Source: Acidobacteria bacterium RIFCSPLOWO2_12_FULL_68_19
Lineage (GTDB): Bacteria > Acidobacteriota > Vicinamibacteria > Vicinamibacterales > UBA2999
Length of the DNA stretch: 64,000 bases
Reading direction: 5' to 3'
NCBI GenBank assembly: GCA_001767525.1
Contig: MELF01000049.1
Span: 62,001 to 126,000, forward strand
Of the stretch, positions 17,404-60,879 are shown piece by piece. The number at the start of each line of letters is the position of its first letter. The stretch's first letter is position 1. The notes beneath the pieces are model-generated. The model did no database searches and was not told the DNA's origin. It was given only the letters and a program-made list of their open reading frames with translations. Made by a program: the position numbers and the translations under genes.

Positions 17404-18141
17404 CTACTCCGAATACGCCTGGTGGAGATGCACGGGGTGCGCTTTCGCCCGCACCCGCAGGTTGATCATCTCGACGAACACCGAGAAGCCCATCGCGAAG
17501 TAGATGTAGCCTTTCGGGATGTGCTGGTCGAACCCCTCGGCGACCAGCGACACCCCGATCAGCAGCAGGAAGCTGAGCGCCAGCATCTTCACCGTCGGAT
17601 GCCGCTCGACGAAGACCGCGATCGGGCCGGACGAGACGAACATCACGGCGACCGCGGCGACGACCGCAACGATCATCACCGCCACGTCCTCCGCCATCCC
17701 GACCGCCGTGATCACCGAGTCGAGCGAGAAGACGACATCGAGCAGCATGATCTGCACGATGACCGAGGCGAACGAGGCGGCCACCCCGGCCGAGGCGTGC
17801 CCTTCCTCGCCCTCGAGCTTCTCGTGAATCTCGTGGGTGCTCTTGGCCAGCAGGAACAGCCCGCCGACAATCAGAATGAGATCGCGCCCAGAAATCTCCT
17901 GTCCTACCACCGCGAAGAGCGGCGCCGTCAGCCGCATCACCCACGTAATCGACAGCAGCAGCACGATCCGCATCAACATCGCCAGGATCAGGCCGATCCT
18001 GCGCGCCCGGCCGCGCTCCTCCGGCGCGAGCTTCCCGGCGAGGATGGAAATGAAGACGATGTTGTCGATGCCGAGGACGATCTCCAGGACCGTCAGCGTC
18101 AGGAGGGCGATCCACCCCTCCGGCGTCGTCATCCAGTCCAT
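17404..18141 (-). CDS. TerC-family integral membrane protein (putative metal exporter)
   Basis: A 245-residue protein with about seven membrane helices. VLEIVLGIDNIVFISIL near the N terminus and DVVFSLDSVITAVGM in the second half are the paired acidic N/D-containing motifs of TerC proteins, and GYIYFAMGFSVFVEMIN closes the family region. TerC proteins include Mn2+ exporters that help metallate secreted proteins, and tellurium-resistance-linked forms; the substrate here is not determined. It converges with the DUF1499 gene and follows the hypothetical gene on the same strand. Confidence 0.9.
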   Translation of the reverse strand: MDWMTTPEGWIALLTLTVLEIVLGIDNIVFISILAGKLAPEERGRARRIGLILAMLMRIVLLLSITWVMRLTAPLFAVVGQEISGRDLILIVGGLFLLAKSTHEIHEKLEGEEGHASAGVAASFASVIVQIMLLDVVFSLDSVITAVGMAEDVAVMIVAVVAAVAVMFVSSGPIAVFVERHPTVKMLALSFLLLIGVSLVAEGFDQHIPKGYIYFAMGFSVFVEMINLRVRAKAHPVHLHQAYSE

Positions 18142-52036: not shown

Positions 52037-55000
52037 CTACAACCCCATTCCTGAGACGGCAAGCCGGCCCCTGCGCCACGCCCGCACTTTCATGATGTAG
52101 AAGATCACCGGCGTAATGATCAGCACGTGGATGGTTGATGTGACCATGCCGCCGATGATGGGCGCCGCGATCGGCTTCATCACGTCCGCGCCGACGCCGG
52201 TGCTCCACATGATCGGCAGCAGCCCAGCCATGACCACGCTGACCGTCATCAGCTTCGGCCGCAGCCGGAGGACCGATCCGGCCACAGTCGCCTCCCAGAT
52301 GTCCTGCGGCGTGATCTCGCCGCCCCGGCGCAGTCGTGTGTCGAGCGCTTCGTGCAGGTACACGACCATCACGACGCCGGTCTGCACGGCCACGCCGTAG
52401 AGCGCGATGTAGCCGACCCAGACGGCCACCGAGAAGTTGTAGCCGAGCAGCCACTGCAGGATGACGCCGCCCGTCATGGCATACACCACCGACAGCATGA
52501 CGATCGCCGCTTCCGACACGGAGTGGAACGTCAGGTACAGCAGCATGAAGATGATGAAGAAGACGATCGGAATGAGGATCCGGAGGCGCTCCCGCGCCCG
52601 CACCTGGAACTCGTACTGTCCGGTCCAGAGCAGCGTGTACCCGGGCGGCAGCGGGACGGCCGACTCGATCGCCGCACGCGCGCGCTCGACGTAGCCGCCG
52701 ATGTCACGCGTGGCCGTGTCGACGTAGACATACCCGGCGAGCTGCCCGTCCTCGTCCCGGATCATCGCCGGCCCCGACGTCAGCGCGATGTCCGCGAGCT
52801 GTCCGAGCGGCACCTGCGCGCCCGCCGGCGTCTTCACGAGGACTCGTTCGAGGCCGGGGATGTCCTGCCGGAAATCACGGTCGTACCGCACGTTGACGGG
52901 ATAGCGCTCCCGTCCCTCGATCGTGCGGGTCACGTTTTGCCCACCGATGGCCGACTGGATGACGTCCTGCACGTCCTCGATCGCCAGCCCGTGGCGGGCG
53001 ATCGCCTCCCGGTCGATCCGGATGTCGGTGAAATAGCCCTGCGACACGCGCTCCGCATAGACGCTGCGCGTCCCCTCGACGCCCTGGAGGACCTGTTCGA
53101 TGTCGCGGCCAATGCGCTGAATCTCGTTCAGGTCGGGCCCGAACACCTTGATGCCAATCGGCGTCTTGATGCCGGTCGACAGCATGTCGAGGCGGTTGCG
53201 AATCGGCTGCGTCCAGCTGTTCGGCAGCCCGGCGAACTGCAGCGCCTCGTCCATCTCGGCCTGGAGTCGCTCGGTCGTCATCCCCGGCCGCCACTCCGCC
53301 TTCGGCTTGAGCGTGATGGTGGTATTGACCATCCCCATGGGCGAGTTGTCCGTCGGCGTCGTGCCGCGGCCGACCGTGCCGAACACCCGTGCGACCTCCG
53401 GGAACTCGCGCAGCAGCTTGTCCTGCACCTGCAGCACGCGCGTCGCTTCGCCGATCGACATCCCCGGGGGCGAGGTCGGCATGTACAGGAAGGCGCCTTC
53501 GTACAGCGGCGGCATGAACTCGCTGCCGATGCCGAGCACGAGTGGAATCGTGAGCGGCACGACGGCGAAATTCACGAGGAGCGCCGCCCACCGCCACCGC
53601 AGCGCCAGCCGCAGCATCGGCGCGTACAGCGCGGTGAAGGAGCGCGACACGGGATTGGCCGACTCCGGCTGCAGCCGGCGGCCGCGAATGAAGATCGTCA
53701 TCAGCACCGGCACGAGCGTGATCGACAGGAGCGAGGCGAAGATCATCGCGAACGTCTTGGTGAACGCCAGCGGCCGGAACATGCGCCCTTCTTGCGCCTC
53801 GAGCAGGAACACCGGCACGAACGAGACGATGATGATCGCCAGCGAGAAGAAGATGGCGCGACCGACCTGCCGGGCCGCCTGCACGACCACGGCTGGCTGA
53901 TCCGCATAGGCCGGCACCGTTCCACCCCGCTCCTCGTCCGGCTCCGCCACGCGCCGGTACGCGTTCTCCACCATCACGATCGACGCATCCACCAGCACAC
54001 CGATCGCGAGCGCGATCCCGCCGAGCGACATGATGTTCGACGTCACGCCGAGGTAGTACATCGGGATGAAGGACGCCACGACCGCGACCGGCAGGGCGAG
54101 GATCGGAATCAGCGCCGACCGGACGTGGAACAGGAAGACGACGATCACCAGCGAGACGACGATCGCTTCCTCGATGAGCGTGGACCGGAGCGTCGCGATC
54201 GACTCGCCGACGAGCCACGAGCGATCGTAGGTGGGGACAATGCGCACCCCCGCCGGGAGCGAGGCCTCGGTCTCCTGCAGCCTGGCCTTGACGGCGTCGA
54301 TCACCTCCAGCGCGTTCCCGCCGAACCGCATGACGACGATCCCGCCGACCACCTCGCCGCGGCCGTCGAGCTCTGCCACGCCGCGGCGGATGTCGGGGCC
54401 GATCCGCACCTGCGCCACGTCGCGCACGCGGACCGGCGTGCCGGCGGCGCTCGCGCCGAGCGAAATCTGCTCGATGTCGGCGGACGACTGCAGGTAGCCC
54501 CGCCCGCGGACCATGTACTCGCGGCCGGCGAACTCCAGGAGCCGCCCCTCGACGTCGTTGTTGCTCGCCTGAATGGCGCGGACCACGTCCTTCACGGCAA
54601 GGTCGTACGCGGAGAGCTTGTTCGGATCGAGGCTCACCTGGTACTGCTTGACGAAGCCGCCGATGCTGGCGACCTCCGCGACGCCGGGCACCGCGGCCAG
54701 CCAGTAGCGCAGATGCCAGTCCTGCAGGCCGCGCAGATCCGCGAGCGTGTGCCGACCGGTCTCATCGACGAGCGCGTACTCGAACACCCAGCCGACACCG
54801 GTGGCATCCGGGCCGATCACTGGATCGACGCCCTCCGGCAACTGGCGGCGGATGCCCTGCAGGTACTCCACCACCCGGCTGCGGGCCCAGTAGAGATCGG
54901 TGCCGTCCTCGAAGATGACGTAGACGTACGAGATCCCGAAGTCGGTGAAGCCGCGGACCGTCCGTACGTTGGGTGCCGAGATCAACGCCGTGACGATCGG

Positions 55001-55201
55001 GTAGGTGATCTGATCCTCGATCAGGTCGGGGCTGCGTCCCTCCCACTCGGTCGATACGATCACCTGGACGTCGGAGATATCCGGCACCGCGTCGAGCGGC
55101 GTCGCCGTCATCGCCCAGACGCCCCACAGCGTCAATGCGACGGTGCCGGTGAAGACGAGAAACCGGTTCCTCGCGCACCACTCGATCGTGCGTTCAATCA
55201 T
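52037..55201 (-). CDS. RND heavy-metal efflux pump, inner-membrane subunit (CusA/CzcA family)
   Basis: A 1054-residue RND pump. It opens IERTIEWCARNRFLVF and has PDISDVQVIVSTEWEGRSPDLIEDQITYPI, the heavy-metal exporter signature, twelve membrane helices and two large periplasmic loops. The central helix has GVLVDASIVMVENAYRR and the periplasmic porter domain carries methionines (LDMLSTGIKTPIGI), which suits Cu(I)/Ag(I) rather than Zn/Co. It works with the adaptor and outer-membrane genes upstream as a tripartite pump. ATG 55201 is chosen over GTG 55210. Confidence 0.93.
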   Translation of the reverse strand: MIERTIEWCARNRFLVFTGTVALTLWGVWAMTATPLDAVPDISDVQVIVSTEWEGRSPDLIEDQITYPIVTALISAPNVRTVRGFTDFGISYVYVIFEDGTDLYWARSRVVEYLQGIRRQLPEGVDPVIGPDATGVGWVFEYALVDETGRHTLADLRGLQDWHLRYWLAAVPGVAEVASIGGFVKQYQVSLDPNKLSAYDLAVKDVVRAIQASNNDVEGRLLEFAGREYMVRGRGYLQSSADIEQISLGASAAGTPVRVRDVAQVRIGPDIRRGVAELDGRGEVVGGIVVMRFGGNALEVIDAVKARLQETEASLPAGVRIVPTYDRSWLVGESIATLRSTLIEEAIVVSLVIVVFLFHVRSALIPILALPVAVVASFIPMYYLGVTSNIMSLGGIALAIGVLVDASIVMVENAYRRVAEPDEERGGTVPAYADQPAVVVQAARQVGRAIFFSLAIIIVSFVPVFLLEAQEGRMFRPLAFTKTFAMIFASLLSITLVPVLMTIFIRGRRLQPESANPVSRSFTALYAPMLRLALRWRWAALLVNFAVVPLTIPLVLGIGSEFMPPLYEGAFLYMPTSPPGMSIGEATRVLQVQDKLLREFPEVARVFGTVGRGTTPTDNSPMGMVNTTITLKPKAEWRPGMTTERLQAEMDEALQFAGLPNSWTQPIRNRLDMLSTGIKTPIGIKVFGPDLNEIQRIGRDIEQVLQGVEGTRSVYAERVSQGYFTDIRIDREAIARHGLAIEDVQDVIQSAIGGQNVTRTIEGRERYPVNVRYDRDFRQDIPGLERVLVKTPAGAQVPLGQLADIALTSGPAMIRDEDGQLAGYVYVDTATRDIGGYVERARAAIESAVPLPPGYTLLWTGQYEFQVRARERLRILIPIVFFIIFMLLYLTFHSVSEAAIVMLSVVYAMTGGVILQWLLGYNFSVAVWVGYIALYGVAVQTGVVMVVYLHEALDTRLRRGGEITPQDIWEATVAGSVLRLRPKLMTVSVVMAGLLPIMWSTGVGADVMKPIAAPIIGGMVTSTIHVLIITPVIFYIMKVRAWRRGRLAVSGMGL

Positions 55202-55243
55202 GCCTGTCACTCATCAGGATGCCGACGTGCCTCGTACCCCACC

Positions 55244-55693
55244 TCATTGCGCGGTGACCGACAGCGTCTCGCTGTCAATCGGCTGGCCGCCACGGCTCAC
55301 CGTGACGGTCACATCCCAGCTCCCGGCCATCAACACCATGCCGGTCCCGGTATACCGGCCGCTCCCCTCGTGCGTGAGCTCGACGCGGTTCCGCATCTCG
55401 CGCATGTTCATCTGCGGCATCGCGGCCATGTAGAACTCCGCCGACACGCTGGCGTCGGTCACCGGCCGCCCGTTCTCGTCCATCACCGCCACCTCGAACC
55501 TGTTCTCGCCCGTCTTCGGCGGCGCCGGAGTGCTCGCGAACGCGATCGTCAGGTCCCGCGCCGCTCCCGCTGTCGGCGCGGCCGCCGCCGGGGCCGCGGG
55601 AGCGGTGTCGCCCGCCGGCGGCTGACTGCTTCCACACGCGGCCACGAATGCACCACCTGCCACCAGTCCGAGCATCACGATCAGTCGTGTCAT
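55244..55693 (-). CDS. FixH/YtkA-like lipoprotein
   Basis: A 149-residue lipoprotein: lipobox VAACGSS near 18-23, a Pro/Ala linker, then an immunoglobulin-like YtkA/FixH domain (DLTIAFASTPAPPKTGENRFEVAVMDENGRPVTDASVSAEFYMAAMPQMNM). Met-rich MAAMPQMNMREM could bind Cu(I). The domain is repeated at the C terminus of the adaptor encoded just upstream. Function is likely metal-site or copper delivery in the periplasm. Confidence 0.8.
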   Translation of the reverse strand: MTRLIVMLGLVAGGAFVAACGSSQPPAGDTAPAAPAAAAPTAGAARDLTIAFASTPAPPKTGENRFEVAVMDENGRPVTDASVSAEFYMAAMPQMNMREMRNRVELTHEGSGRYTGTGMVLMAGSWDVTVTVSRGGQPIDSETLSVTAQ

Positions 55694-55704
55694 CGTCGTC
55701 TCCT

Positions 55705-57225
55705 TCACCTCACCAGTACCGCGAACTGCCTCGACCCCACACGCTGGCCGTCCCTGTTGACATTCACCGTCACGTCCCATCGACCGCCCGTCATCACCTG
55801 ACCCGTGCCGCGGTACAGGCCTCCTCCGACCGGCGCCAGCGTCGTGTCGGTCCGCACCGCCGGCATGTTCATCGCCGGCATCGCCGCCATGAAGAAGGTC
55901 ACGGTAACCGCCCCGTCCGGAACCGATCGCCCGGATGCGTCCTTCACCGTCACCTCGAACGTGTTGTCTCCCGTTCGCGGCGGATCGGGTTCGGTCCTGA
56001 AGGTGATCGCGACGGTCTCGGCAGCGGCGCCGGCCGAGGCGGGAGCGGGCCCCGCCTCGTACCGCTCGACGGAGGCGCGGAGCTGACTTTCGGAATCGAG
56101 GAAGAAGGTGGCGCCAAGCGCGACCTGCTCGCCGGGCTTCAGGCCGTCGAGGATCTGCACGCGGTCGCCGAGCCGCTGTCCCACCGTGACGTCGCGCGGC
56201 AGGAAGTAGCCGTTCCCCTCGGCCACGAAGACGCGCTGACGCGTGCCTGAGTCGAGCAGCGCGTCCGACGGGACGGTGATGCTCCTGCCGAGCGGCGCCT
56301 CCAGCGCGACGTTCGCGTACATGCCGGGCTTCAGCCGGGTGCCGCGGTTGGCGAATGCGAACCGGACCCGCATCGTCCGGGTCCTTTCCTCGACGAACGG
56401 ATAGATGTAGATGGCGCGGCCGGCGAATCGCTCGCCGGGATAGGCGTCGAGCGTCACCGTGGCCGATTGGCCGACGTGGATGAGCGGCATGTCGTGTTCG
56501 TAGATATCCGCTTCCACCCAGACCTGCGTGAGATCCGCGATCTTGAAGAGCGTCTGCCCGGGCGTGACGAACATGCCTTCGAGGACGTGCTTCTCGATGA
56601 CGTAGCCACTGACGGGCGAGCGGAACGTGACGGCGGTCTGCGGCTGCCTCGTCTCATCGAGCGCCTGCATCTGGTCGGAGGGAATGTCCCAGAGGGCGAT
56701 GCGCGTGCGGGCGGACTCGACCAGGCGCTCGGCCCGCTCGCGCGCGTCCGGGATGCGCGACTGGCGCAGCTGGTCGCGCGTCGTGAGCGCCAGCAGATAC
56801 TCCTGCTGCGTGCTGAGCAGCTCGGGGCTGTAGATGGTGAAGAGCGGCTCCCCGCTCGACACGAACCGGCCCGTATAGTCGACGTGCAGATCGCGAATCC
56901 ACCCCTCGACCTTCAGGTTCACGTCGCTCAGGCGCGTCTCGTCGTAGCGCACCGTGGCGACGGTGCGAATCGTCTTGGCGAGCAGCGCCTGTTCGACCGG
57001 CGCCGTACGGACGCCGATCAACTGCTGACGCCGGAGATCCAGGTTGACCGGGGCGCGTGCGTCGGGAGCCTGCGCGTGCGGCTCCGGCCGAAGCGGCGTG
57101 TCGACCGCCGTCTCCGCCGGCACTTCTCCGGTCCGCTGGCGCAGGCCGAGCGCCGCAGCCGCCGCGACCCCAACGAGCGCCACGAGCGCCGCGGCCAGTA
57201 TCTTGCGCGTGGGTGTGGTCGTCAT
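55705..57225 (-). CDS. RND efflux periplasmic adaptor (CusB-like) with fused C-terminal YtkA-like domain
   Basis: A 506-residue membrane-fusion protein. N-terminal membrane anchor (ILAAALVALVGVAAAA), the coiled-coil hairpin with ELLSTQQEYLLAL, lipoyl and beta-barrel parts (PGQTLFKIADLTQVWVEADIYEHDM, AIYIYPFVEERTRTMRVR), then a C-terminal domain from about 400: TVAITFRTEPDPPRTGDNTFEVTVKDASGRSVPDGAVTVTFFMAAMPAMNM. That domain is a close copy of the lipoprotein 12 bases downstream. ATG 57225 has GGAGAGG 5 bases upstream; ATG 57240 overlaps the CusC stop (ATGA). Confidence 0.9.
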   Translation of the reverse strand: MTTTPTRKILAAALVALVGVAAAAALGLRQRTGEVPAETAVDTPLRPEPHAQAPDARAPVNLDLRRQQLIGVRTAPVEQALLAKTIRTVATVRYDETRLSDVNLKVEGWIRDLHVDYTGRFVSSGEPLFTIYSPELLSTQQEYLLALTTRDQLRQSRIPDARERAERLVESARTRIALWDIPSDQMQALDETRQPQTAVTFRSPVSGYVIEKHVLEGMFVTPGQTLFKIADLTQVWVEADIYEHDMPLIHVGQSATVTLDAYPGERFAGRAIYIYPFVEERTRTMRVRFAFANRGTRLKPGMYANVALEAPLGRSITVPSDALLDSGTRQRVFVAEGNGYFLPRDVTVGQRLGDRVQILDGLKPGEQVALGATFFLDSESQLRASVERYEAGPAPASAGAAAETVAITFRTEPDPPRTGDNTFEVTVKDASGRSVPDGAVTVTFFMAAMPAMNMPAVRTDTTLAPVGGGLYRGTGQVMTGGRWDVTVNVNRDGQRVGSRQFAVLVR

Positions 57226-57236
57226 GATCCCTCTCC

Positions 57237-58598
57237 TCATGGCTGCTCGATGCCGTCCGCGGCAAACATTGCCGGCGCGAGGTCGGTTCCGACGGCGCGT
57301 TCGAGGTCGGCGATGGCCTCCTCGAGGTCGCTCACCGCGCCGTAGTAGGCGAGCTGCGCGTCGAGCAAGACGCGCTGGTTGTCGATGAGCGCGAGGAAGT
57401 CGACGCGGTCGGCCTGATAGGCGACGCGCGAGACCTCGAAGGTCTGCTCCGACTGCGGCACGATGCTGGTCCGCAGCAGATCGGCCCGCTGCGCCGCCGA
57501 TTGGACGCGCACGTACGCCTCCTGCACGGCGTACCGGACGGCATTCTCGACGGCTCGCGCGCGCGCGACCGCGGCGTCGATCTCCGCCCGCGCCGCGGCG
57601 ACGCGCGCATCCAGCCGGCCCCGCGACCATGGCGCCCCGGGCCACGTCATCCCCACGGTGGCGGTCCACGCGTCGCCGCCGCGCGGCGTCAGCATGTAGC
57701 CGCCCCCAACGAAGAAATCCGGCGTGTACTCCGCCCGGGCCGCCGCAAGCCCCGCCTGCGCCCGCTCGCGCTGGAGGGCGGCGGCACGCAGCTCCGGCTG
57801 CCGCTCGAGGGCCAGGCGCTGCAGCTCAACAGCGGCGGGCAGGAGGACGCGCTCGCGTGGCCTCCCCACGGGACCGATGGGCGCGTCGGGCGGCCGGTCG
57901 AGCAGCGTGTTGAGCTGTGCCTCGGCGATGCGGGCCCGCTCGTCCATCATCACGAGGTCCTCGTGGACCCGGGACAGCTCGACGACCGCCTTCAGCACGT
58001 CCTGCTGCGAGATTCGGCCCGTCGCGTACTTGGCCTCGGAGATGTCGGCGAGCTGCCGCAGCAGATCGACGCTCGCCAGGTGGATGTCGATGTGCGTGCG
58101 CGCCAGGAACAGCTCCGCGTAGGCGCGCTTGACCTCGTCCACCACCGCGCGCGCCCGGATCGCGATCTCGCCCGCCGCCACATCGGCTTCCTTGTCCAAA
58201 ACGGCGGCACGAGCTCGACGCTTTCCTCGCCCGGGAAGGTCTTGCCCGAAGGTCAGCATGTACATGCTCGTGTCGCGCGGGTTGACCGAGCCTATCGGCC
58301 ACTGCCAGATCTGCGCCTCGAGCGACGGCGGCATCAGGAATCGCTCCTCCGCCGGACGCAGGCGCGCGGCGTCGAACTGCCTCCGCAGCGCGACCAGCGT
58401 TGGATTGCGCGCGAGCGCCTCGTCGAGCGCCGCATCGAGCGTCAGCGGTGGTCCTTCGTGCGCATGCCGCTGCTCGAAGGTGTGCAGGCCGTCCTGCAGC
58501 TGCCGCGGAGTCGCGGCGCCAGCCGTGGCGCCCGAATCGGCCCAGGCCGGTCCGGCGGCGGCGAGCGCAAGAAGTACGGCGAAGATGTGTCGAGACAT
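57237..58598 (-). CDS. TolC-family outer-membrane factor (CusC-like)
   Basis: A 453-residue outer-membrane efflux protein. Signal ends PAWAD; two outer-membrane efflux repeats give LTLDAALDEALARNPTLVALRRQFDAAR and QRERAQAGLAAARAEYTPDFFVGGGY, each long-helix coiled coil. The Q-G-tail ends MFAADGIEQP. Forms the export duct of the tripartite metal pump with the adaptor and CusA-like genes downstream. Its stop overlaps a possible adaptor start. Confidence 0.9.
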   Translation of the reverse strand: MSRHIFAVLLALAAAGPAWADSGATAGAATPRQLQDGLHTFEQRHAHEGPPLTLDAALDEALARNPTLVALRRQFDAARLRPAEERFLMPPSLEAQIWQWPIGSVNPRDTSMYMLTFGQDLPGRGKRRARAAVLDKEADVAAGEIAIRARAVVDEVKRAYAELFLARTHIDIHLASVDLLRQLADISEAKYATGRISQQDVLKAVVELSRVHEDLVMMDERARIAEAQLNTLLDRPPDAPIGPVGRPRERVLLPAAVELQRLALERQPELRAAALQRERAQAGLAAARAEYTPDFFVGGGYMLTPRGGDAWTATVGMTWPGAPWSRGRLDARVAAARAEIDAAVARARAVENAVRYAVQEAYVRVQSAAQRADLLRTSIVPQSEQTFEVSRVAYQADRVDFLALIDNQRVLLDAQLAYYGAVSDLEEAIADLERAVGTDLAPAMFAADGIEQP

Positions 58599-58734: not shown

Positions 58735-59097
58735 CTAGATCAGGAAGGACGCGAGAAGGACGTACAGAGGCGGCGAACCCAACTGACGCGGAGCGCGGTC
58801 ATGGAGAGCCGCAGGAGGCACGAACGGACGGACGTCCGGCAACGCCGAGGGTACGGCGGGCGCCGGTCGCATCGGATGTGCGACCTGGCCGTCTCGGTCC
58901 GCTGGCGCGTTCAACTGCTCCGACGTTGCACAGCAGTCGGTCACGCTCGCCCCGGACGCGAGATCGCCCAGATGGGCGCAGCAGATGTGACGGTCCGCGG
59001 CGGCGCTCGACCAGCCAGCGCACGCCGCCAGTGCGGGTGCGGCCGTCCAGACCAGGAGCAGCAACGCACAGGCGGCGGCAGATCGACGAAGCCTCAC
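58735..59097 (-). CDS. Exported Cys-rich protein
   Basis: About 120 residues: signal RSAAACALLLLVWTAAPALA, then ACAGWSSAAADRHICCAHLGDLASGASVTDCCATSEQ, with paired cysteines (C-C, C-C), then a Pro-rich tail and a final hydrophobic LYVLLASFLI. The two CC pairs with nearby His suggest metal binding. GTG 59097 is set by GGAG 6 bases upstream. It lies between the DUF6152 gene and cusC. Confidence 0.6.
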   Translation of the reverse strand: MRLRRSAAACALLLLVWTAAPALAACAGWSSAAADRHICCAHLGDLASGASVTDCCATSEQLNAPADRDGQVAHPMRPAPAVPSALPDVRPFVPPAALHDRAPRQLGSPPLYVLLASFLI

Positions 59098-59114
59098 CAC
59101 GTCTCCATGGTACT

Positions 59115-59507
59115 TCACATCCCGCGCGGCCGCATCTTCCAGAGGAAACCGTCCTTCGGCCGCTGCATGCTCGTCATGCGCACCCGGTGGTCGGTGGGAT
59201 TCCTCCCAGGCCACCCGCTGACGATCACGTAGTCGCCCAGCTTCAGCGTCTCGGGCGTCACGCCCTGGCCCCCGAGCTCGGCCGCCCCAACCCACTCCAC
59301 GGCGTACCGCACGAGGGAGCCGTCCTTCTCCTTCACGACAACGTGGACGAAGGAGTGCGGATTGCGCAGGACAATCTGCGCCAGCTCGCCCTGGATGGTG
59401 ACGGTCCGGTCTTCGACGTAGATGTCGGGAAATGAATGATGCGCGCGCGCCGGCGCGGCCATCGCGAACGCTCCAGCCGCCACGAGCGCAGCTAGAAGAC
59501 GCCTCAT
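59115..59507 (-). CDS. DUF6152 exported protein (head of the cus operon)
   Basis: A 130-residue protein: signal ending APARA, then H23-H24-S-F, R-N-P-H51, YAVEWVGAAELG and GDYVIVSGWPGRNP. Signal cleavage at A-R-A would expose His-His. It is the only DUF6152 copy outside 22-34 kb and heads a minus-strand cluster running into cusCBA, tying the family to metal efflux. It is divergent from arsR. Confidence 0.87.
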   Translation of the reverse strand: MRRLLAALVAAGAFAMAAPARAHHSFPDIYVEDRTVTIQGELAQIVLRNPHSFVHVVVKEKDGSLVRYAVEWVGAAELGGQGVTPETLKLGDYVIVSGWPGRNPTDHRVRMTSMQRPKDGFLWKMRPRGM

Positions 59508-59604
59508 GGGACCCTCCGAGACATCCCCATGGTAGTTGAACGCCGGCGCAACACGCCCTGAAGAGTACCTGAATTCTTCGTCAGGATTCCATCGGGTTCA
59601 GGAG

Positions 59605-59646
59605 GGAAATAGCGCTATTTCCATGATTCGGGGAATATGGTATATG
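59605..59646 (+). promoter_or_regulatory. Promoter and operator of arsR
   Basis: An 18-bp perfect palindrome, GGAAATAGCGCTATTTCC (59605-59622), overlaps a -35-like TTTCCA (59618-59623). A 17-base spacer and TATATG -10 (59641-59646) follow. With normal spacing the start would be at or near the ATG at 59653, so the arsR mRNA may be leaderless. An ArsR dimer on the palindrome would block the -35, consistent with autorepression. Confidence 0.65.
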
Positions 59647-59652
59647 TAGCCC

Positions 59653-60000
59653 ATGGGTACGGCTCAGAGCGATGTCGCCCTCGCCCGCTTTGCCGACATG
59701 CTCGCCGCCATGGGCACCGAGCCGCGCCTGCGGATTGTCCGCCTCCTGCTCGCCGCCCATCCCGCCGGCATGGTGGCCGGGGAGCTCGGCAGCGCGCTCG
59801 ATCTACCGCCGTCGACGCTGTCCCACCATCTCGACCGGCTGAAGCGTGAAGGGGTGGTGACGGTGCGCCGAGACAAGACGTTTCTCTGGTACACGGCCAA
59901 CACCGCGGCACTGGAGGAGCTCCTTCGATTCCTGTACGCCGAATGCTGCACGCGGAACTGCGCCTGCGATCCGGCGCATATCACACAGGAACATTCGTGA
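59653..60000 (+). CDS. arsR: ArsR-family arsenic-responsive repressor
   Basis: A 115-residue winged-helix repressor. The DNA-binding helices are LGSALDLPPSTLSHHLDRLKREGVVTVRR; the C-terminal tail carries C98-C99 and C103-x-C105 (AECCTRNCACD). Vicinal cysteines followed by a third Cys near the C terminus is the As(III) site type of the Acidithiobacillus ferrooxidans ArsR. Release from DNA on As(III) binding would induce arsM. It precedes arsM by 27 bases. Confidence 0.9.
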   Translation: MGTAQSDVALARFADMLAAMGTEPRLRIVRLLLAAHPAGMVAGELGSALDLPPSTLSHHLDRLKREGVVTVRRDKTFLWYTANTAALEELLRFLYAECCTRNCACDPAHITQEHS

Positions 60001-60027
60001 CTTCCGACAAGTGACATGGAGGCACCC

Positions 60028-60879
60028 ATGGAGAATCTCATCGACGTCGTCCGCGATCGTTATGCGGAGGCCGCTCGCCGCGTCGCCCGCGGCGAGCCCG
60101 CCGGCTGCGGAGGCAGCGCATCACCCTCTGAGCCGTGTTGCGACCCGGTGACCTCAGACCTCTACGGCGCTGGCGACGCGGCCGCGGTGCCCGACACCGC
60201 CCTGCGAGCCTCTCTCGGATGCGGCAACCCCACCGCCCTTGCCGAGCTGCACCCGGGAGAGGTCGTGCTCGACCTTGGGAGCGGCGGCGGCATCGACGTC
60301 ATCCTGAGCGCTCGGCGCGTGGGACCGACGGGCAAGGCGTACGGCCTCGACATGACCGACCAGATGCTCGCGCTCGCGGAGGAGAACCGGCGCAAGGCCG
60401 GCGTCACCAACGTGGAGTTCCTGAAGGGGCGGATTGAGCAGGTGCCGCTGCCCGGCGAATCGGTGGACGTGATCATCTCGAACTGCGTGATCAACCTGTC
60501 TGCCGACAAGGCACAGGTGCTGCGCGAAGCGTTCCGCGTGCTGAAGCCGGGTGGCCGCCTGGCTGTGTCCGATGTCGTGGTCCGCGGCGAAATGCCCCCG
60601 GCCGTGCGGCGCTCGATGGAACTCTGGGTTGGCTGCATCGCCGGCGCGCTGACCGAAGACGACTATCGGCGCATGCTGGAGGCCGCCGGATTCACCGACA
60701 TCGAGCTGGAAACCACCCGCGTCTACGAACTCGAGGATGCGCGGATCGTGCTGGCCGGGTCAGGACTCGACGTCGACGCGGTGGCGCCGCTCGTCCGGGG
60801 ACGGGTCACGAGCGCCTTCGTCAGGGCACGGAAGCTTGCTGGCCTCCCAATCGTGCGCGACCAGCCTCAGAATTCGTAG
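60028..60879 (+). CDS. arsM: Arsenite S-adenosylmethionine methyltransferase ArsM
   Basis: A 283-residue SAM methyltransferase. Motif I is VLDLGSGGGIDV; the order of cysteines (C in AGCGGSA, CC in PCCDPV, SLGCGNP, SNCVIN) is typical of ArsM, which methylates As(III) with three or four Cys. It converts arsenite to methylated, volatile or less toxic forms. ATG 60028 has a GGAGG 5 bases upstream; ATG 60016 is part of that site. Its last 13 bases overlap the convergent outer-membrane gene. Confidence 0.92.
   Translation: MENLIDVVRDRYAEAARRVARGEPAGCGGSASPSEPCCDPVTSDLYGAGDAAAVPDTALRASLGCGNPTALAELHPGEVVLDLGSGGGIDVILSARRVGPTGKAYGLDMTDQMLALAEENRRKAGVTNVEFLKGRIEQVPLPGESVDVIISNCVINLSADKAQVLREAFRVLKPGGRLAVSDVVVRGEMPPAVRRSMELWVGCIAGALTEDDYRRMLEAAGFTDIELETTRVYELEDARIVLAGSGLDVDAVAPLVRGRVTSAFVRARKLAGLPIVRDQPQNS

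Follow-up and report, generated by a model that had tools for sequence, protein, structure and literature searches.

The window, by which we mean the whole 64,000-nucleotide stretch of DNA that was analyzed, contains a closely packed operon on the minus strand encoding, in order, an outer-membrane factor (OMF), a periplasmic adaptor carrying a C-terminal YtkA-family domain, a lipoprotein that is a free copy of that domain, and a CusA-type permease. The genes and features of the operon are:

57237..58598, minus strand: outer-membrane factor (TolC/CusC type), identified by Pfam OEP (E 1.2e-47) and gene order
55705..57225, minus strand: periplasmic adaptor (CusB/SilB type) with a C-terminal CrdA/YtkA-like domain, 506 aa
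55708..56016, minus strand: fused CrdA/YtkA-like domain, adaptor residues 404-506, delimited by Pfam YtkA and the AlphaFold model
55855..55890, minus strand: Met loop of the fused domain, residues 446-457 (M446, M449, M452, M454, V457)
55244..55693, minus strand: free CrdA/YtkA-like lipoprotein, 149 aa, with the lipobox VAAC and Cys20
55394..55429, minus strand: Met loop of the free copy, residues 89-100 (M89, M92, M95, M97, M100)
52037..55210, minus strand: CusA-type RND permease (NCBIfam TIGR00914), Met triad kept

The start of the OMF gene was set at MSRHIFAV (~58598) within an open frame that extends to 58697, and the start of the lipoprotein gene at the ATG at 55693 rather than at the longer open reading frame start at 55780. 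Only 11 nt lie between the adaptor stop and the lipoprotein start, and the locus therefore comprises a fusion plus a separate gene. A consensus scan detected no promoter or terminator at the operon, a scan that is uninformative at the G+C of this DNA. Directly upstream of the OMF gene, at 58735-59295 on the minus strand, is a gene for a small Cys-containing protein (HICCAH...DCCATSEQ) that belongs to no Pfam family and precedes the same operon in the relatives L037, L038, and L039. The pump operon is also adjoined, at 59115-60879, by genes for a DUF6152 protein and a divergent ArsR-type regulator accompanied by an ArsM-like methyltransferase; this neighborhood recurs in L037 and L038 and may be the seat of the operon's regulator.

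The original prediction, made from the sequence of the window, was of a CusB-like adaptor with a fused YtkA/FixH-like domain lying beside a free copy of that domain, and the coordinates, motifs, and genes on which it drew were all confirmed. Pfam profiles placed HlyD_D23 at residues 82-304 of the adaptor (E 4.2e-81) and YtkA (PF13115) at residues 401-487 (E 3e-14). The lipoprotein is a YtkA domain alone (residues 45-130, E 2.4e-19) behind its lipobox, and the YtkA matches of both proteins are above the curated cut-off. The adaptor region from about residue 400 was said to align with the adjacent lipoprotein, and BLASTP aligned the fused and free domains ungapped over 99 aa with 48% identity (E 6e-29). 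The Met block reads FFMAAMPAMNM in one copy and FYMAAMPQMNM in the other, and the motifs at the domain end are GTGQVMTGGRWDVTV and GTGMVLMAGSWDVTV. One copy would be tethered to the pump and the other lipid-anchored, as had been proposed. Of the two family labels, FixH is the weaker: the FixH (PF05751) matches lie marginally above the cut-off (24.8 and 30 bits, cut-off 23) and below those to YtkA. The neighboring genes are those of a metal pump and not fixGHIS. In NCBI records, some such proteins are labeled merely as adaptor or as FixH family.

The ratio dN/dS of the fused domain was ~0.13-0.27 in six pairwise comparisons (Nei-Gojobori), similar to that of the adaptor core, indicating that the domain is maintained under the same purifying selection. 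Chance resemblance or a frame error was rejected on the basis of the identity between the copies, the occurrence of the fusion in many independent assemblies, and dN/dS. Neither the adaptor nor the lipoprotein gave a Pfam profile match to CusF_Ec (PF11604), and homology of the fused or free domain to CusF was rejected for that reason. The earlier observation that no cusF accompanies the pump holds for the window; the genome's one CusF_Ec match lies on contig C10 at 17471-17659 (L009, L013), joined to a SCO1/SenC-like protein.

CrdA-like is the best name for the domain. The AlphaFold2 models, for which sequences of the retrieved loci were aligned, had a pLDDT over the domain of ~98 for the free copy and ~95 for the fused copy, and of <50 for the adaptor linker at residues 389-400. 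The best solved-structure match of the free-copy model is Helicobacter pylori CrdA with silver (9ll4; VIA, Z 14.0, rmsd 2.0 over 98 aa; Foldseek E 1.1e-5), and the apo form of CrdA (9ll2) matches at Z 13.3. A 12-row profile of relatives also matches H. pylori CrdA (E 2.7e-14). The CrdA chain carries the published motif MMxEMPGMxxMxEM, and for the protein a micromolar affinity for Cu(II) has been measured and a sub-nanomolar affinity for Cu(I) proposed (PMC9182242). H. pylori becomes sensitive to copper when crdA is deleted, and likewise when the pump gene czcA is deleted (PMC12319023).

Both window copies contain the Met loop MxxMPxM(xM), which has almost no Cys or His, Cys being practically absent. 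Every one of 57 fused adaptors of the phylum has M446, M449, and M454, and nearly every one has M452; across 72 domains, M89, M92, and M97 of the free copy are invariant, with M95 and M100 nearly so. The fused copy of the window has V457 in place of the fifth loop Met usual in most relatives, and some fused lineages have a shortened loop of the MPAMGSMPPM type. Homology to the silver-bound CrdA structure supports the view that the window domains would bind Cu(I) or Ag(I). It is very improbable that the domain has no part in metal handling in this pump and is an Ig-like module of the YtkA/FixH fold for structure or docking. In favor of that reading are the Ig-like and macroglobulin folds that score Z 8 to 10.6 against the model and the weak YtkA matches in large membrane proteins of the genome (L006 and L007) that show no sign of a metal role. 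Against it, CrdA stands clear of the next fold (Z 10.6) with one entry silver-bound, the Met loop is nearly invariant across the phylum, and the domain is associated with CusA-type pumps.

The fusion is not unique to this assembly: a search of other RND operons, proposed together with the original prediction, found the same fusion widely, and it recurs across many independent assemblies. Full-length fusions are present in 14 of 39 near relatives (own genome included), in at least 26 of a phylum-wide sample of 297 Acidobacteriota genomes, among the matches listed, and in ~40 of 49 loci from a motif-led scan of named genomes. Carriers are mostly Acidobacteriota (Vicinamibacteria and Acidobacteriaceae), together with one Gemmatimonadaceae record, one Chromatiales record, and plasmids of the Nitrospirota Candidatus Manganitrophus; by the sequence of the free copy, plasmid-borne relatives were found only in records of Candidatus Manganitrophus, and spread by plasmids was rejected on this basis. 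Among the matches listed for 299 sampled Pseudomonadota genomes, the full fusion was found only in the seed genome G459, and a wide presence in Pseudomonadota was rejected on this evidence; the fusion is rare there, although weak cases may lie beyond the matches listed.

The free copy lies immediately after the fused adaptor in 8 of the 14 near-relative genomes. In a domain tree built from 105 columns, and thus of modest resolution, the free copies adjoining fused adaptors, plus one beside a permease fusion, formed one group of 12 apart from the fused copies (support 91/85), so the pair of fused and free domains looks old. A recent tandem duplication in the window genome was unsupported, because in this short alignment the free copies cluster together and not with the fused copy of their own genome. 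Nine of the 12 grouped free copies have a Cys-containing lipoprotein-type signal, non-canonical in one of them (L015), and the remaining three (L052, L054, and L064) look simply secreted.

Pfam detects the heavy-metal-binding family HMBD in E. coli CusB and in SilB. N-terminal HMBD (PF19335) was absent from the window adaptor by Pfam, and alignment shows that the segment is missing. Among adaptors of the phylum, an HMBD-like motif was found in 9 of 56 fused versus 21 of 25 unfused proteins (Fisher 7e-9), and either an HMBD-like segment or a Met-rich tail in 16 of 56 versus 25 of 25 (Fisher 3e-10), a contrast obtained by pattern search on related, selected sequences, with Fisher values that ignore relatedness and sampling. 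The simplest reading of these sequences is that the CrdA-like domain may have taken over the metal-acceptor role of HMBD-like segments and Met-rich tails; as nine fused adaptors carry both the HMBD-like motif and the CrdA-like domain, replacement is not strict. That adaptors usually carry a metal-binding element of their own, which the fused ones mostly lack, could also be read to mean that the fused domain senses metal or activates the pump allosterically; binding would then change the conformation of the adaptor and switch CusA on, as has been proposed for CusB, with no handover of the ion. The linker is short, and CusB of E. coli has been reported to activate CusA (PMC4446572). We nevertheless consider a sensor unlikely, since CrdA, the closest relative, binds metal as a free, secreted protein whose gene adjoins those of a pump (PMC9182242), which points to carrying, and a free paralogue has been retained beside the fused domain.

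The permease of the window scored 1141.7 bits against TIGR00914 (cut-off 701.45). By residue mapping, its M577/M627/M676 correspond to M573/M623/M672 of E. coli CusA, the three-Met Cu(I)/Ag(I) metal site of that protein, and Met is also found at the positions of M391, M486, and M1009. The divalent-metal CzcA of pMOL30 has S/A/E at the three triad positions. All 36 readable CusA proteins encoded beside fused adaptors have the Met triad, as do all six beside unfused adaptors; being common to both kinds of locus, the triad marks the Cu(I)/Ag(I) class and does not discriminate between fused and unfused systems. The window pump would thus be of the Cu(I)/Ag(I) type by class, and both the identity of its metal and a role in copper resistance are predictions from sequence.

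A second pump of the same genome, on contig C40 (L010:4348-7998), carries the domain on its permease instead. Beyond the point where such proteins normally stop, this second CusA-type permease, which keeps the Met triad, continues through a hydrophobic segment, probably an additional (13th) transmembrane helix, into a C-terminal YtkA domain (Pfam E 3.8e-10); no YtkA domain was seen in the adaptor of the same pump. Elsewhere in the class, 13 genomes match the permease fusion across the whole join, and ~15 more match in two neighboring pieces. A separate type of permease fusion, with a loop closer to that of the adaptor copies, was found in L034 and L076. The weak YtkA matches in L006 and L007 are in large membrane proteins without any sign of a metal pump, and these were rejected as metal-pump relatives. 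The repeated tethering of the domain, to the adaptor in many lineages and to CusA in other pumps, suggests that its position matters. This argues against the domain serving mainly as a sink for periplasmic Cu(I), storing or buffering it at the pump and leaving delivery to CusA to bulk exchange, a role to which a Met-only loop of four or five Met with practically no Cys would be suited and to which the free lipoprotein would add capacity; we regard it as improbable.

Parts of this arrangement have precedents. In SilB of Cupriavidus metallidurans CH34 (SilCBA), a C-terminal chaperone (CusF) function has been reported (PMC4446572). Like the window protein, SilB serves a CusA-type pump as a CusB-type adaptor bearing a metallochaperone domain at its C terminus. 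The position of the fusion also agrees, since in both proteins it follows the membrane-proximal domain (HlyD_D23 at 123-334 and CusF_Ec at 443-510 in SilB; HlyD_D23 at 82-304 and YtkA at 401-487 in the window adaptor). However, the SilB chaperone is CusF, of another family and fold, and SilB has the N-terminal HMBD that is absent from the window adaptor. H. pylori CrdA is of the same domain family as the free copy by both profile and fold. Its gene accompanies those of an OMF, an adaptor, and an RND permease, and the protein is rich in Met, lacks His and Cys, and is predicted to be lipidated (PMC9182242). In the CrdAB-CzcBA system CrdA is described as a separate protein, whereas the window encodes two copies, one of them fused to the adaptor, and the second pump of the window genome has the domain on the permease. 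The E. coli CusCFBA system resembles the window operon in pump type, in the Met triad of CusA, and in having a small periplasmic chaperone among the pump genes, but CusF belongs to a family unlike YtkA/CrdA, and CusB has HMBD and no C-terminal domain. The CrdA and SilB precedents were missed in the original prediction. A close parallel in layout, within the same Pfam family YtkA, is provided by Bacillus subtilis, where the free lipoprotein CtaK (YtkA) and the YtkA domain fused to the copper transporter YcnJ have partly redundant roles; these domains serve copper delivery to cytochrome oxidase, not export (PMC13344008). The B. subtilis domains thus differ in acting in copper supply, with fusion to a CopC-CopD importer, YcnJ, and not to an RND exporter.

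The suggestion, hedged when it was made, of a Met cluster that could bind Cu(I) and supply it to CusA, as CusF does elsewhere, draws support from three directions: the nearest solved relative, CrdA, was crystallized with silver and has a measured affinity for Cu(II) and a proposed one for Cu(I) (PMC9182242); the CusA encoded in the operon has the three Met residues of the Cu(I)/Ag(I) site; and SilB-CusF establishes the arrangement of a CusB-type adaptor with a C-terminal chaperone (PMC4446572). We think it probable that the operon encodes a Cu(I)/Ag(I) tripartite pump in which a CrdA-like, Met-rich domain takes the place of both CusF and the N-terminal metal-binding segment usual in such adaptors and loads CusA, with the free copy acting as chaperone or sink. 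A flexible linker would join the domain to the adaptor's C terminus, in a position expected near the periplasmic face of CusA; the Met loop of the domain would take up Cu(I) or Ag(I) and transfer it to the three-Met entry site of the permease. As a further chaperone or sink, the free lipoprotein, probably anchored in the outer membrane, would gather metal in the periplasm and could pass it to the tethered domain. We infer delivery and the order of the relay from position and from SilB-CusF (PMC4446572).

CusA pumps, CrdA, and the adaptor-chaperone fusion are all known ingredients. In the literature searched, we found no description of the CrdA fold on a CusB-type adaptor, or on CusA as well, with a free paralogue kept and HMBD mostly missing. 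The combination points to a pump with a built-in copper chaperone. More tentatively, and with the balance of probability somewhat against it, the CrdA-like domain might be a mobile metal-acceptor module that substitutes for CusF and HMBD in CusA-type pumps of the Acidobacteriota, joined separately to the C termini of adaptor and permease, with a relay between domains of the same fold running from the lipid-anchored collector to the pump-tethered domain and on to the CusA Met triad. The fusions bear on how CusA-type pumps obtain periplasmic Cu(I), on the need for chaperone docking, and on the role of the adaptor's metal-binding segment. An unrelated chaperone fold on adaptor or permease, with the adaptor motif mostly gone, indicates which element may replace which, and the natural fusions are ready-made constructs for testing delivery. 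H. pylori CrdA, with its silver-bound structure, is thereby tied to a definite adaptor position.

Two further sets of records were noted among the loci. The contigs L048 and L073, from metagenome-assembled genomes (MAGs) titled Acidimicrobiia, match Acidobacteriota loci (L048 being like L024) and are probably mislabeled. In an Acidobacteria MAG (L085:1481-6903), the adaptor is split between two frames, with one CrdA-like domain after the adaptor and another after CusA.
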